Positions 5,197-14,630 of a stretch of 33,590 nucleotides of DNA are shown here, piece after piece. Both the position numbers and the translations under genes were made by a program. The stretch is from an uncultured Gammaproteobacteria bacterium (GTDB lineage: Bacteria > Pseudomonadota > Gammaproteobacteria > Pseudomonadales > Pseudohongiellaceae), in the NCBI GenBank assembly GCA_913060695.1, contig CAJXUA010000030.1, forward strand, positions 1 through 33,590, given 5' to 3'. Positions within the stretch are counted from its first letter, which is position 1, and every line of letters starts with the position of its first letter. The notes below the pieces were generated by a model, which was not told where the DNA came from, made no database searches, and was given only the letters and a program-made list of their open reading frames with translations.

Positions 5197-5473
5197 TTAG
5201 TGTGTGGATGTATCGTTTTGGATGACATTCAAGGCATCGTGGATAGACTTGCGTCTGTCGGGCTTCTACATTGAAAACCCTTTAACCGAGTGCCATAGCC
5301 GGTTCTATGCCTGCTGCTAAGTTGTCTCCAATCATGACACAGTCTTGTGCTGCTAGGCCCAATTAGTCGAGTGCGTGTTGGAAAAATTTGCTCTCTGGCT
5401 TTCGAGTGCCGCAATCCGCTGGCGTGACGACATGAGTAAAATGAGTGTCGAGGCCTAAATTGCGCAATTCCCC
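5197..5473 (-). pseudogene. HAD-superfamily hydrolase, C-terminal relic with two stops and a frameshift
   Basis: Translating the minus strand from 5473 gives a clear C-terminal half of a HAD phosphatase: ELRNLGLDTHF, then VVTPADCGTRKPESKFFQ (motif III Lys region), then DCVMIGDNLAAGIEPAMALG (motif IV acidic loop). The frame is interrupted by TAA at 5363-5365 (between HALD and LGLAAQD) and TAA at 5282-5284 (after AMALG). Near 5255 the homology shifts by +1, and in that frame SIHDALNVIQNDTSTH runs to a TAA at 5197-5199, as expected of a family C-terminus. The N-terminal half with the nucleophile DxDxT motif is absent: the relic abuts the stop of the upstream acyltransferase gene. The interpretation as a decayed gene is strong; the exact HAD subfamily is uncertain. 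Confidence 0.85.
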
Positions 5474-9569: not shown

Positions 9570-10135
9570 GACTTATTCCTGCCGGACAATAGAGTTTCAA
9601 AATGAAGAAGTTTAGTACGCGTAATAGTAACTCGTCATTCCTGTATCGACATTTAAATAGTTCAGTACAGAGTAGAGCGTTTGCAGCATGAAGTAGACAT
9701 CTGTGAGCCCTAGCCCATAGGCGGGGGTGAGTATTAGCTGTCTCTAGATTAGTAAGTCGAGTGGAGCGATTATATCGTTAAACGGAGTCTCAATGAGCAG
9801 GAGTAGTTGGGAAATAGCGAGCCCTGACAAAGGGATATTGAGCTCTTCTCTATTGTTGGCATTGAGATCTGTCTAGGTCAAAAACGCTAATTGTGATTTC
9901 CTGCGTTGGTCACTTTGTTCCGTTGACTAGGCAAAGACGCGGGTATTCGAATGCTAAACTTTGAAAAACATTGTAATTCGCAGAAAACGCTCAGTATTAG
10001 CAACTAATCAGGAAGCATTTCTAGCTGGGAATACGTTACTCTTGTTTCCAGAACACGAATATTCAGCTTACTGTGTATTTTGCACGGTCAGTCTGAAATA
10101 AAACCCCTGCTTTAAGCAGATTGGAGGAGAACTAC
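9570..10135. other. 566-base gap without a recognisable gene
   Basis: This gap separates the minus-strand hydrolase and the plus-strand copper monooxygenase gene and must hold the start signals of both. I see no tRNA, no convincing coding frame and no recognisable decayed gene. The only structure I can point to is a short inverted repeat at 10107-10119 next to the monooxygenase ribosome site. A TTGACT at 9933 and a TATAAT-like string on the minus strand near 9767 lack correctly spaced partners. Confidence 0.5.
10107..10119 (+). promoter_or_regulatory. short hairpin adjoining the monooxygenase ribosome site
   Basis: CTGCTT and AAGCAG pair around a single T. The structure ends 3-4 bases before the strong GGAGGAGA ribosome site (10123-10130) of the cytochrome-monooxygenase gene, so it could influence initiation or mRNA stability. 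It is short and may be chance. Confidence 0.25.
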
Positions 10136-11575
10136 ATGCGACTTTCGTCATTCATTAAAAAAGGCTTGCTACTGGCATTTTCGGGTCTGGCAATTTCGCC
10201 AGTGTTAAGTGCCCAGGAAGTGACTTTCCACAAAGATATTGAGCCGATACTACAACGTAGTTGTCAGACTTGTCACAGGGATGGCGGCGTTGCCCCAATG
10301 CCATTGGTAAGCTATGACGAGACGGCTCCATTCGCTGGGCTGATTGAGTATAAGACGAGCCTGCGCGACCGTGCCGGCGCTATGCCGCCTTTCTATGCAG
10401 AGAAGAATATAGGCATTCAACACATCAAGGATGACCCTTCACTGTCTGATGCGGAGCTCGCCGCAATCTCAACTTGGGCGCGTTCAGGCGCACCAAAAGG
10501 CGATGCAGCCGACGCTCCGGCGCCGCTGGTCTTTGATAATAATGCCAAGTGGAAGCTGGGCGAGCCAGACAAGATTGTGCAACTCAAAGACTTCCTAATG
10601 GAAGGTGGGCGACCCGATTGGTGGGGCGAGCTTCCCAGTGTTAGCACTGGCATGACCGAAGACCGCTACGTGAAGTCTGTTGAAATCATTGAAGTAAACG
10701 ACGTGAATGAAGGTGTCGCTGCGTCCGATACGGTAGGTGGTTTGTATATATTCCACCACATGATCTGGCGTACAGAAGTAGTAGACGAGAATGGCAAAAT
10801 AATTCCTGGTCAGTCTGTTTCTTTCCCAGTTCACGAAGTGGGTCGCAATGGCGATGTCTTCGACCCGGAAGCAGGCCCCTTATTGGCAGCGAATTCCGCT
10901 TTCTTCACCGATTCGGTGCATATGCACTCGAATGGGCGTGATACGGTTGGTCATTTGGAGATTGGCTTCCGCTTCCACCCGAGAGGCTATGAGCCCAAGT
11001 ACAAGTCTTCCATTAGTATCCTAGGCAATGGCGTGGATATCAGTGTTGAAGGTGATGCTAAGGATCAGGAATTACATGCCTATCAAGTACTAACGCAAAA
11101 TACCAAGGTCATCACCTTTGAGCCCCACCTACACGCCCCTGGCGAGCGTATGTGTCTTGAGGCTATCTGGGGTTATTCTGTGGAGACTATTTCCTGCGTG
11201 GGCTATGACCACAATTGGGTGAGAGGATACGGTTTCGAAGATAACTACACACCACTGCTGCCAAAGGGCACCATTCTTCACATCACTGGCTATTTCGACA
11301 ATACCAAGGCCAACCCCAATGTTCCTGATCCACGCAACTGGCAGGGTTCTGGTAACCGCTCGGTAACCAATATGTTTATCGACTTGGGCATCCGCGTAAC
11401 CATGACTGACGAGCAGTTCAAGGAAGAGATGGAGACGCGCCGTAACAATCTGAACCTAGGTCCAAACGACCATGTGATTGGTTGTCCTCTATGTCTAGCA
11501 CCGCTGGTATGGCCACTCGAGTCAGACTCAGCCAATGCTAACGAGCAACTGGATGACAAGGTAGCTGGAAACTAA
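10136..11575 (+). CDS. secreted cytochrome c domain fused to PHM-like copper monooxygenase
   Basis: A 479-residue exported protein. Residues 1-26 are a Sec signal peptide (cleavage after VLSA). A c-type heme domain follows, with CQTCH at 43-47 and a possible methionine ligand, Met83, in GAMPPF. The C-terminal part resembles copper type II ascorbate-dependent monooxygenases: HHM at 207-209 and HMH at 262-264 could form one copper site, and HLH at 331-333 with Met413 the other. Rat PHM uses His107/108/172 and His242/244/Met314, so spacing agrees closely. The tail has LHITGYFDNTKANPNVPDP and a CPLC pair (450-453). It probably hydroxylates an organic substrate in the periplasm, with the heme supplying electrons; substrate unknown. 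The ATG at 10136 has a strong GGAGGAGA site. A secreted partner follows 121 bases later. Confidence 0.8.
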   Translation: MRLSSFIKKGLLLAFSGLAISPVLSAQEVTFHKDIEPILQRSCQTCHRDGGVAPMPLVSYDETAPFAGLIEYKTSLRDRAGAMPPFYAEKNIGIQHIKDDPSLSDAELAAISTWARSGAPKGDAADAPAPLVFDNNAKWKLGEPDKIVQLKDFLMEGGRPDWWGELPSVSTGMTEDRYVKSVEIIEVNDVNEGVAASDTVGGLYIFHHMIWRTEVVDENGKIIPGQSVSFPVHEVGRNGDVFDPEAGPLLAANSAFFTDSVHMHSNGRDTVGHLEIGFRFHPRGYEPKYKSSISILGNGVDISVEGDAKDQELHAYQVLTQNTKVITFEPHLHAPGERMCLEAIWGYSVETISCVGYDHNWVRGYGFEDNYTPLLPKGTILHITGYFDNTKANPNVPDPRNWQGSGNRSVTNMFIDLGIRVTMTDEQFKEEMETRRNNLNLGPNDHVIGCPLCLAPLVWPLESDSANANEQLDDKVAGN

Positions 11576-11615
11576 CATTAGTTAGATTAACTACCCCTCG
11601 TTTATACAATGAACA

Positions 11616-11641
11616 AGAGAGGCTCGATATCGAGCCTCTCT
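11616..11641. repeat. perfect 26-base palindrome between the two secreted-protein genes
   Basis: Each half is AGAGAGGCTCGAT or its exact complement, with no spacer. It lies 41 bases after the monooxygenase stop. No run of T follows on either strand, so it is not a standard intrinsic terminator. It could slow transcription, protect the 3' end of the upstream message after processing, or bind a dimeric protein. Confidence 0.6.
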
Positions 11642-11696
11642 GTGCCCTAAAATGTTCACTTATCGGAGATCTTGCTGGAAAGGCAAGAAACTAGAT

Positions 11697-12713
11697 ATGA
11701 AAATTAAGTTCAAAGATTTAGCGAAATCAGCACTTGTTATATTGATCAGTGGACTGGCGCTCACGTCGACCACTGTGTTTGCACAGCAGGATTACGAATA
11801 CGCCAAGCACACATATTTGAGCGGTCAGCATGCTGAAGTGGCTTATGAGGGCTGGGAAGAAAACGAAGACGGCACGATAACCATGACCTTTGGCTACTTC
11901 AACCACAACTGGGAAGAAGAGCTCGATATTCCAATTGGCGAGAACAACCGCTTCACTACAGGCGAGCCAGACCGCGGTCAGCCTACCCATTTCCTACCAC
12001 GACGTAACCGCTTCACCTTTGAGGTCATCGTGCCTGAAGACTTCGGAGATAAGGAACTGGTTTGGGAGCTAACTTCTCCGAATGGTGTGACTCGCGCAGC
12101 CTATGGCACTCTTCGTGCGGACTACAAAATAAACAACGTCACCATTATGTCTGAAACCGGTTCACTGGGTGCAGGCACCTCCGATGAAGCAACTAGGGCC
12201 AATATCCCTCCGTCTTCAGAATTAATCGGTGACGGGTTCCGAACCGTCAGTGTAGGTGAGACGCTCACTTTCCAGACTCTATTAAGCGACGATGGCGTAC
12301 CAGAACCCTTCGATCCTATGCGACGCGTCAGGCTTCTGGGCGGCGCGGCAGCGGCTTTCGCTACGCCTGAAGTGGTTCGCGACATGATGATGAAGATGCC
12401 GCCACCGAAGCCAACGGTAGCCAAAAATAACGGCCTATACCTGTCTTGGAATGTTTACCGTGCGCCAGAAGGCTTAAGCAACGTTCAAGAATCCGTGCAT
12501 TTTTATCCACCACAGGTTAAGCCATGGGAAGATACCCGACCATCGGCTAACTCTCCTTGGAGTTGGTTGTGGTTGCCACCAAAGTTGCCTGAAGATGGAA
12601 TAATTGAAGTAAGCGTTACTTTCGACGAGCCAGGCACCTATGTGCTTTGGGGACGAGCGGATGATGGTGGTCTTTTCACCGATCAGTATCTAACGGTTAA
12701 CGTAAGAGAATAA
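11697..12713 (+). CDS. conserved secreted protein of unknown function, partner of the copper monooxygenase
   Basis: A 338-residue exported protein with a signal peptide (about 1-29, cleavage after VFA). I do not recognise a named domain. The N-terminal portion (VAYEGWEENEDGTITMTFGY, then LDIPIGENNRF, then GQPTHFLPRRNRF) has a conserved look I associate with uncharacterised proteins of environmental Proteobacteria and Acidobacteria. The C-terminal portion is beta-rich and ends in FDEPGTYVLWGRADDGGLF, reminiscent of an immunoglobulin-like or cupredoxin-like strand pair, but without clear copper ligands. ATG 11697 is chosen because it gives a proper signal peptide; the frame upstream (11652) would place charged residues ahead of it. 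The ribosome site is weak. It ends just before a clear terminator and is probably one unit with the monooxygenase gene. Confidence 0.7.
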   Translation: MKIKFKDLAKSALVILISGLALTSTTVFAQQDYEYAKHTYLSGQHAEVAYEGWEENEDGTITMTFGYFNHNWEEELDIPIGENNRFTTGEPDRGQPTHFLPRRNRFTFEVIVPEDFGDKELVWELTSPNGVTRAAYGTLRADYKINNVTIMSETGSLGAGTSDEATRANIPPSSELIGDGFRTVSVGETLTFQTLLSDDGVPEPFDPMRRVRLLGGAAAAFATPEVVRDMMMKMPPPKPTVAKNNGLYLSWNVYRAPEGLSNVQESVHFYPPQVKPWEDTRPSANSPWSWLWLPPKLPEDGIIEVSVTFDEPGTYVLWGRADDGGLFTDQYLTVNVRE

Positions 12714-12742
12714 CGGCTCCTAGGAGCTCGAGTAAAACATCG

Positions 12743-12776
12743 AACCAGAGAAAGGTTTTCCTTTCTCTGGTTTTTT
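12743..12776 (+). terminator. intrinsic terminator after the monooxygenase unit
   Basis: Stem arms AACCAGAGAAAGG (12743-12755) and CCTTTCTCTGGTT (12760-12772) are perfectly complementary around TTTT, and a six-T run starts at 12771. Orientation fits termination of the plus-strand pair, 30 bases after the second gene's stop and before the convergent glmS. Confidence 0.92.
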
Positions 12777-12794
12777 ATATCCGGAGCAATTGCG

Positions 12795-14630
12795 TTATTC
12801 GACCGTCACAGATTTTGCAAGATTGCGAGGGTGATCGACATCTGTACCCTTGAAAATAGCAACGTGGTAGGCCAATAGCTGCAATGGAATCGTATAGATA
12901 ATCGGGGCAAGAATATCGGGCACAGAAGGGATATTGACGACCTTACAACCGCTATCGTTCTCGAACCCGGCACTCTCGTCGGCAAACACGAATAGCTTAC
13001 CGCCACGGGCACTCACCTCTGCAAGATTACCCTTCAGTTTGCCGAGCAGTTCATCGTTCGGGGCAACCGCGATGACAGGCATCTTGTCATCCACTAACGC
13101 CAAGGGACCATGTTTCAATTCCCCGGCTGGATAGGCCTCTGCGTGAATATAGGAAATCTCCTTGAGCTTCAAGGCGCCTTCCTTCGCTACTGGATATTGA
13201 ATGCCACGGCCAAGGAACAAGGCGTGATTCTTATCCATGAGGTTTTTAGAGATATTGCGAATATCGTTATCTAACTCGAGGGTCAAATTAACTAGAGCAG
13301 GCAGTTTATTGAGGTCACTGACATACTGTCTCTCTAGCTCGTCTGCCATACCCGTGCGTCGTGCTAACACCAACGTTAGGAGTAATAGAACGCATAGTTG
13401 AGTAGTAAAGGCTTTCGTTGAGGCTACGCCGATCTCTCGACCCGCCGTAGTCAAAAGGCAGAAATCGGATTCGCGCACTAGAGAGCTCGTCGCCACATTG
13501 CAAATCGCAAGCGTGCCAACATAATTAAGCTCTTTCGCGTAGCGCAGTGCTGCCATGGTGTCTGCGGTTTCACCGGATTGTGAGATGCTTACGAATAAGG
13601 TGCCTGGTTGCGCAATAATATTCCGGTAGCGATAGTCACTAGCGATATCAACCGAGCACGTCATTTTCGCGATATTCTCTAGCCAGTACTTGGTGATCAT
13701 CGCCGCATGAAAACTCGTGCCGCAGGCGACAATCTGCACACTCTTTACCTTGTCGAAGATAGCCTTGGCTTTCACACCGAAGGCTTCTTCAAGTACATGG
13801 GTATCGCTGATTCTGCCGCTAAGAGTATCTTTGATAACCTTAGGCTGCTCATAGATTTCCTTGAGCATAAAGTGACTATACTCGCCCTTCTCTACCTCAC
13901 CCGCTTCACTCGTGATATGCGTGATAGGGCGGCTTACTTTTTTGTCGCCGTTCCAGATCTTTATAGTTTTGAGAGTGAGCTCCGCTATGTCACCCTCCTC
14001 AAGATACATGAAGCGGTCAGTTACCTGACCAAGGGCCAAGGCATCAGAGGCCACGAAATTCTCGCCGATGCCAACCCCAATGACCAGTGGGCTGCCACTA
14101 CGTGCGACGATAATCCTATCTGGCTCGTTACGGTTGATGACACAGAGGCCATAGGCTCCGTGTAGTCTGCGCACGGTTTCTTTTACGGCATCAAGCAAGC
14201 TAATGCCTTTCTCTTTAATTATCTTGTGGATTAAATGAACGATTACCTCAGTATCAGTCTCAGACTCGAACTGATAACCAGCTTCGGTAAGCTCTTCGCG
14301 GAAAGTTGAGAAATTCTCGATGATACCGTTGTGTACAAGTGCGATCTCTGCCTGTGAAATATGGGGATGAGCGTTTTTTTCACTCGGCTCGCCATGGGTT
14401 GCCCAGCGCGTGTGCGCGATCCCTATCTGGCCTACGAATGGGCGTTTGCTCATCGCCTCTTCGAGTTTCTCGACTTTTCCTAATGCCCTAATACAATCAA
14501 TCTCTGAGGTCTGCGCGCTTATCAACGCCATACCCGCTGAATCATAGCCTCTATATTCTAAGCGCTTGAGTCCCTCTAGGAGAATTCCAGACACATCCCT
14601 TTGCGCAACTGCGCCTACTATTCCACACAT
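12795..14630 (-). CDS. glmS: glutamine--fructose-6-phosphate aminotransferase (isomerizing)
   Basis: GlmS makes glucosamine-6-phosphate from fructose-6-phosphate and glutamine, the first step of UDP-GlcNAc synthesis for peptidoglycan and LPS. At 611 residues it is full length. Cys2 after the initiator Met (MCGIVGA) is the glutaminase nucleophile, with HTRWATHG and HNGIIEN in the N-terminal Ntn-hydrolase domain (about 1-235). Two SIS domains follow, with VACGTSFHA, SISQSGETADT and the terminal NLAKSVTVE that carries the catalytic lysine. The start at 14630 has a near-ideal AAGGAGAT site. It follows glmU by 47 bases in the same direction, so the two are likely co-transcribed. I see no glmS ribozyme, as expected outside Firmicutes. 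Confidence 0.98.
   Translation of the reverse strand: MCGIVGAVAQRDVSGILLEGLKRLEYRGYDSAGMALISAQTSEIDCIRALGKVEKLEEAMSKRPFVGQIGIAHTRWATHGEPSEKNAHPHISQAEIALVHNGIIENFSTFREELTEAGYQFESETDTEVIVHLIHKIIKEKGISLLDAVKETVRRLHGAYGLCVINRNEPDRIIVARSGSPLVIGVGIGENFVASDALALGQVTDRFMYLEEGDIAELTLKTIKIWNGDKKVSRPITHITSEAGEVEKGEYSHFMLKEIYEQPKVIKDTLSGRISDTHVLEEAFGVKAKAIFDKVKSVQIVACGTSFHAAMITKYWLENIAKMTCSVDIASDYRYRNIIAQPGTLFVSISQSGETADTMAALRYAKELNYVGTLAICNVATSSLVRESDFCLLTTAGREIGVASTKAFTTQLCVLLLLTLVLARRTGMADELERQYVSDLNKLPALVNLTLELDNDIRNISKNLMDKNHALFLGRGIQYPVAKEGALKLKEISYIHAEAYPAGELKHGPLALVDDKMPVIAVAPNDELLGKLKGNLAEVSARGGKLFVFADESAGFENDSGCKVVNIPSVPDILAPIIYTIPLQLLAYHVAIFKGTDVDHPRNLAKSVTVE

Follow-up and report, generated by a model that had tools for sequence, protein, structure and literature searches.

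A predicted cytochrome c-fused relative of the copper monooxygenases PHM and DBM, paired with a secreted Ig-like protein in a gammaproteobacterial family

The copper monooxygenases peptidylglycine alpha-hydroxylating monooxygenase (PHM) and dopamine beta-hydroxylase (DBH, or DBM), which complete peptide hormones and produce noradrenaline, have been characterized chiefly in animals, where ascorbate supplies their electrons. A gene pair from an uncultured member of the Pseudohongiellaceae raises the question of whether bacteria possess a branch of this group that carries an electron donor of its own. The pair lies on the forward strand of a 33,590-nucleotide stretch of DNA (contig CAJXUA010000030.1 of assembly GCA_913060695.1; hereafter "the window"), which belongs to a host genome of 3.73 Mb; the genomes nearest to this host in the named collection are gammaproteobacterial, and several are labelled Pseudohongiella. 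The first gene encodes P1 (10136–11575; 479 aa), an exported protein in which a cytochrome c motif precedes a copper region, and the second encodes a secreted partner, P2 (11697–12713; 338 aa). A preliminary description made from the sequence had interpreted P1 as a PHM-like dicopper oxygenase fed by its built-in heme and working with P2, an interpretation that our analysis partly supports. At a probability of about 0.6, we read P1 as an exported PHM/DBM-type dicopper monooxygenase, probably periplasmic, that is reduced via its fused cytochrome c and has P2 as an Ig-like partner.

The translation confirmed the position of each residue on which that description had relied. Behind a Sec-type signal sequence recognized by eye (residues 1–26; 10136–10213), the chain contains a CxxCH heme c motif at residues 43–47 (10262–10276), two His clusters reading H207-H208-M209 and H262-M263-H264, the pair H331-L-H333, and M413. 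Conservation was assessed in an alignment of 98 sequences, derived from 125 hidden Markov model (HMM) hits (111 distinct) after frames of <400 aa and near-duplicates had been dropped, and drawn mostly from loci chosen for their similarity to the window protein. We distinguish close homologues (≥45% identity to P1, n = 83 including P1) from distant ones (20–27% identity, n = 15). Ten residues (C43, C46, H47, M83, H207, H208, H262, H331, H333, and M413) are identical in all 83 close homologues, and all ten are retained in 13 of the 15 distant homologues. The heme c motif does stand in the same chain as the copper region, as had been proposed: C43, C46, and H47 are kept in 98/98 aligned sequences, as is M83 (10382–10384), the Met of an MPP motif and the probable distal heme ligand, so that the class I c-type cytochrome signature of CxxCH plus distal Met is present throughout.

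The predicted ligands of the first copper site, CuH, are H207 and H208 (10754–10759; 98/98 and 97/98, respectively), which align with the HH of DBH, and H262 (10919–10921; 97/98), which aligns with the first His of the DBH motif VHYH. Those of the second site, CuM, are H331 and H333 (11126–11134; 96/98 and 97/98), aligned with the HTH of DBH, and M413 (11372–11374; 97/98), which lines up with the DEM motif in distant paralogues. Taken as sets, and judged from sequence only, the three CuH residues are complete in 83/83 close and 14/15 distant homologues, and the three CuM residues in 83/83 and 13/15. The proposed ligand set is therefore kept among homologues, with one amendment: for the third CuH ligand, H262 is a likelier candidate than H264 (10925–10927), because H262 occurs in 97/98 sequences whereas H264, an extra His of the subfamily, is present in 83/83 close but only 1/15 distant homologues. 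We count this conservation as a stronger test against chance than shuffling of mature P1, in which HH plus two HxH arose in 3.1% of 20,000 shuffles, and in 0.08% with PHM-like spacings. H264 is one of nine residues (H233, H264, H314, H359, H382, C340, C354, C450, and C453) that are invariant in the close subfamily and absent from most distant paralogues. C450 and C453 form a CPLC motif (11483–11494; close 83/83, distant 0/15), in a region where the model described below has a predicted local distance difference test score (pLDDT) of <50.

An AlphaFold model of P1 (55-sequence alignment; pLDDT 82, predicted TM-score 0.77) bears out the predicted PHM/DBM-like fold. It suggests two jelly-roll domains, which would hold an electron-transfer copper (H207, H208, H262) and an O2-activating copper (H331, H333, M413), with a class-I-like cytochrome c domain (C43, C46, H47, M83) ahead of them at the N-terminus. 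Among the best 50 of 973 Foldseek matches in the PDB, DBH and PHM structures fill the first 31 places (E 2.7e-9 to 3.3e-6), and the next in rank is a glycan-binding protein at E 6.7e-5. P1 also aligns over most of its length with redoxin-type paralogues in the host genome (best E 8.6e-31). The cut-off of PF03712 (Cu2_monoox_C) is passed at five places in this genome, all outside P1 and all overlapping P1 matches. Taken together, the structural and sequence comparisons give good support for placing P1 within the PHM/DBM superfamily in its wider sense. At E 0.01, PF03712 also matches 6 of the 55 members of our A1 profile. Run against the PDB, the A1 profile found DBH (4zel; E 0.034, 195 profile positions) as the only PHM/DBM-type chain, in an alignment that is in register across HH, the HxH at 262/264 (VHLH on VHYH), and the HxH at 331/333, and that ends before M413.

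Several observations weigh against this reading. The TM-scores of P1 with DBH and PHM are modest (0.32–0.41 by query length; root-mean-square deviation 6.4–13.3 Å), identity within the structural alignments is 9–13%, and PHM structures belong to AlphaFold's training set. Foldseek E-values prove little by themselves for beta proteins, because the model of P2 reached values down to 6e-7 against generic Ig proteins. The A1 match to DBH is not significant alone, and the A3 profile, built from the copper region of 17 members, retrieved neither PHM nor DBH from the PDB, just a probable tag artefact, so the sequence-only case is weaker. The Cu2_monooxygenase models also failed to recognize P1 itself: no Pfam or NCBIfam copper-monooxygenase model matches it, PF03712 included, although its relatives in the same genome pass PF03712 as described. 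PF01082, the N-terminal domain, matched neither P1 nor anything else in the host genome, and control genomes were equally silent. The only Pfam match of P1 is to a CBB3 cytochrome, weak and under the cut-off (20.4 of 27 bits). Both distant homologues that lack the full residue set are host-genome paralogues that have lost copper ligands (L020, open reading frame [ORF] 19–1806, and the minus-strand ORF L121:11172–12869), which from their sequences may mean that some family members are not catalytic. Finally, the window has no CopC gene beside P2 and has its AraC regulator cut down to a remnant, and of ~19 genes for pyrroloquinoline quinone (PQQ) dehydrogenase-like proteins, 3 are ≤10 kb from a P1 gene, with ~1.2 expected. 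A PQQ-dehydrogenase pathway, which would follow naturally if the product were an alcohol, had been suggested by the neighbours of a paralogue on contig C1 (described below) and was dropped since this clustering is not significant.

How such a protein might work can be sketched from the known enzymes. In PHM and DBM, CuH hands on electrons and CuM activates O2 for C–H hydroxylation. By analogy, the heme c within the same chain would be the obvious electron source for the copper sites of P1: the respiratory chain would reduce the heme, the heme would reduce CuH in place of ascorbate, and CuM would activate O2 to hydroxylate a C–H bond of the substrate. P2 might bind the substrate or the enzyme, and CopC-type proteins, whose genes adjoin those of half of the relatives fetched, may handle copper. 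If so, this bacterial branch with a built-in donor would offer a simple system for the long-debated question of the electron route to CuH and from there to CuM, and might also yield new C–H hydroxylation chemistry. Family genomes carry several copies and no Pfam or NCBIfam function is assigned to P1, so a single substrate would annotate a large group. A bolder version, which we regard as speculative and rather doubtful, holds that P1, P2, and CopC form an undescribed periplasmic copper oxygenase fed by the respiratory chain, of a stand-alone type found, among the genomes sampled, only in one gammaproteobacterial family; that the nine subfamily-specific residues make up a third site, for a metal or a redox disulfide, absent from PHM and DBM; and that the system oxidizes C–H bonds of some dissolved organic matter, with P2 capturing the substrate.

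The pairing with P2 had been proposed as a fixed arrangement with a co-oriented secreted partner, and the neighbourhood survey agrees: among 80 loci from named genomes, a P2 frame starts ≤600 nt after P1 in 73. The seven misses include one locus with just 93 nt left and one in which P2 lies ~2 kb off. In the window, P2 starts 121 nt past P1 on the same strand; its frame could open at ATG 11652, and the signal-like N-terminus goes with ATG 11697. The model of P2 (pLDDT 76.5) predicts beta-sandwich (Ig-like) domains, with generic Foldseek matches, mostly multi-domain Ig-fold proteins (TM ~0.2). The CBM53 match that Pfam gives is weak and falls short of the cut-off, and PKD and YtkA were each matched in 2 of 50 P2 members. 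Given these generic folds and scattered matches, we do not claim a specific family for P2. A tandem double P2 follows a single P1 in five loci (L082, L086, L087, L090, and L101).

A CopC-like ORF is present in 40 of the 80 loci, in 28 of them ≤300 nt from the end of P2, and all four representatives scanned passed the CopC cut-off. In the window-type loci (≥875 bits to P1; 25 of the 80), such an ORF lies near the P2 end, third in order, in 15. The host genome has two CopC places, one of them adjoining P2 on contig C5. On that contig (L116:7856–10863), P2 stands between the CopC gene and an AraC regulator, with no P1 adjoining; on contig C22 (L117:10517–12775), P2 lies beside an AraC regulator at the contig edge, and P1 could lie off the contig.

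The same fold could be run in reverse, the copper sites oxidizing an organic or sulfur compound, or Cu(I), and passing electrons through the heme to a terminal oxidase, and we consider this unlikely. It would fit the SURF1 gene, encoding a cytochrome oxidase assembly factor, found upstream in 20/80 loci (the single representative scanned exceeded the cut-off), and the small membrane proteins with weak, sub-cut-off DUF6644 or CopD matches in about 17–18/80; a single-heme electron exit is also common in periplasmic dehydrogenases. However, none of the 25 window-type loci has a SURF1 or DUF6644-like gene, the ligand set HH...H/HxH...M belongs to monooxygenases that activate O2, and no PHM/DBM enzyme is known to act as a dehydrogenase. 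Slightly less likely again is a copper- and heme-binding protein without catalytic activity, serving in copper storage, sensing, or delivery while CopC and P2 handle copper. The CopC-like and weak CopD-like neighbours would suit such a role, as would the loss of copper ligands in two paralogues, but the catalytic-type ligands, the CuM Met included, are invariant in 83/83 close homologues, and the number of matches in a genome, which reaches 29, points to diversified substrates more than to a housekeeping role.

That the locus encodes a bacterial peptide-amidating PHM paired with a PAL-like lyase seems to us very improbable. NHL-propeller proteins near P1-type genes, on contig C40 and in locus L033, match the PAL domain of PAM (4e-26 and 3.3e-23), and loci L032 and L048 have relatives of the C40 protein close to P1. 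Both proteins nevertheless score higher overall against the fly Thin NHL domain, and the C40 one also against TRIM NHL domains; moreover, NHL-protein matches in the host genome lie ≤10 kb from a P1 gene on C40 only. We dropped these neighbours as evidence for amidation. Two positions ahead of the first CuM His, where PHM has Arg240, Glu329 stands in 83/83 close homologues (Arg in 3/15 distant), and because Glu stands where PHM has Arg, P1 is unlikely to amidate peptides. Hardly credible, in our estimation, is a pattern of His and Cys that arose by chance in an otherwise ordinary cytochrome c with an unrelated beta domain fused to it. Pfam names just the weak cytochrome, and the A3 sub-profile retrieves no PHM, as such a pattern would have it; yet the ligands are kept at 20–27% identity, the top structural matches are to DBH and PHM only, and homologues pass PF03712.

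Set beside known systems, the proposed monooxygenase shares with PHM, a domain of PAM, its predicted fold and the order and spacing of the HH/H and HxH/M ligands, but has a fused cytochrome c domain, no PAL domain, and Glu at the position of the substrate Arg. Its best structural match is DBH, with HH, HxH, and HxH in register down to the extra second His; unlike DBM, P1 is bacterial and has a cytochrome c domain instead of DOMON, for which Pfam gave no match in P1. The host genome and others of its order also encode redoxin–cytochrome c–Cu2_monoox_C proteins, which have both the cytochrome c and the copper ligands, bar the two host-genome members noted above. These differ from P1 in their longer frames (566–655 aa in the host genome) and in lacking H233, C340, C354, and CPLC; an AhpC-TSA domain was found in 5/55 A1 members, and no P2 directly adjoins the redoxin-type paralogues in the host-genome stretches read. 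Since there are bacterial database entries that join cytochrome c with Cu2_monoox_C, the architecture is not entirely without precedent. Among the matches listed from open-licence PMC papers, the scope of the search, there was no description of a bacterial cytochrome c–PHM protein. PHM has been described as a double-jelly-roll protein of a family widespread in eukaryotes (PMC8812541). A precedent for the proposed electron supply is that a bacterial c-type cytochrome domain, that of Cellvibrio japonicus Cbp2D (CjX183), reduces copper lytic polysaccharide monooxygenases (LPMOs) in vitro (PMC8981238). In that system, as would be the case in P1, the reductant of a secreted copper monooxygenase is a small c-type cytochrome from a bacterium, but CjX183 and the LPMO are separate proteins, with an LPMO copper site and a polysaccharide substrate. 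P1 shows no LPMO histidine brace, its post-signal chain (cleavage placed by eye) starting QEVTFHKD and thus without an N-terminal His, and no LPMO family is among its Pfam matches.

P1 relatives are concentrated in the window's own family. Among 59 family genomes, P1 was matched in 40 at an E-value of 0.001 and in 38 at 2.2e-28 or better, and P2 in 37; the maximum of 29 P1-related matches in one genome counts matches, not genes. Across the order, with ≤4 candidates scored per genome, 32 of 390 genomes match P1 at E ≤1e-20. All matches of >500 bits fall within the window's family, in 14 of those 32 genomes, and the remaining 18 have just longer relatives (frames of 581–773 aa, 26–31% identity). 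In the phylum, at least 81 of 299 genomes match the A1 profile, a lower bound with ≤5 candidates scored per genome; among the matches listed, only those in G000, G259, and G096 extend past the cytochrome part. Plasmid records held no relative of P1 or P2, and a PHROGs search found nothing. The P1-carrying family is probably marine.

Paralogues in the host genome occur in varied settings. On contig C1 (L119:277–14377), a P1–P2 paralogue pair lies amid two PQQ-dehydrogenase-like genes and a cytochrome c, and is also flanked by a DUF1592/1588/1585 protein, a DUF1552 protein, and ankyrin repeats. Two tandem redoxin-type cytochrome c–PHM paralogues on contig C40 (L122:3364–8336) face a divergent NHL-propeller protein, and a redoxin-type paralogue on contig C4 (L128:8746–10745) is split into two adjacent ORFs. 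In the window itself, glmS-like and glmU-like genes come after P2, with an ATP synthase operon beyond them on the opposite strand (all named by eye), and given these flanking genes the P1–P2 pair stands alone. Upstream of P1, within the interval 9570–10120, the AraC-family regulator remnant (9624–9726, reverse strand) is 80.6% identical to positions 5354–5456 of locus L022, within the open frame of the regulator there; in L022, whose P1 is 97% identical, the AraC gene is intact beside P1 and matches HTH_AraC.

The gap between P1 and P2 contains a strong stem-loop (11616–11641) with an 11-bp stem, a 4-nt loop, and no T tract (RNA fold z −4.1 for 11576–11710). An Rfam scan of window positions 9570–12800 gave no match. 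In 7 of the 10 orthologous gaps looked at by eye, comparable stems with changed sequence are present, which suggests an RNA processing or stability element.

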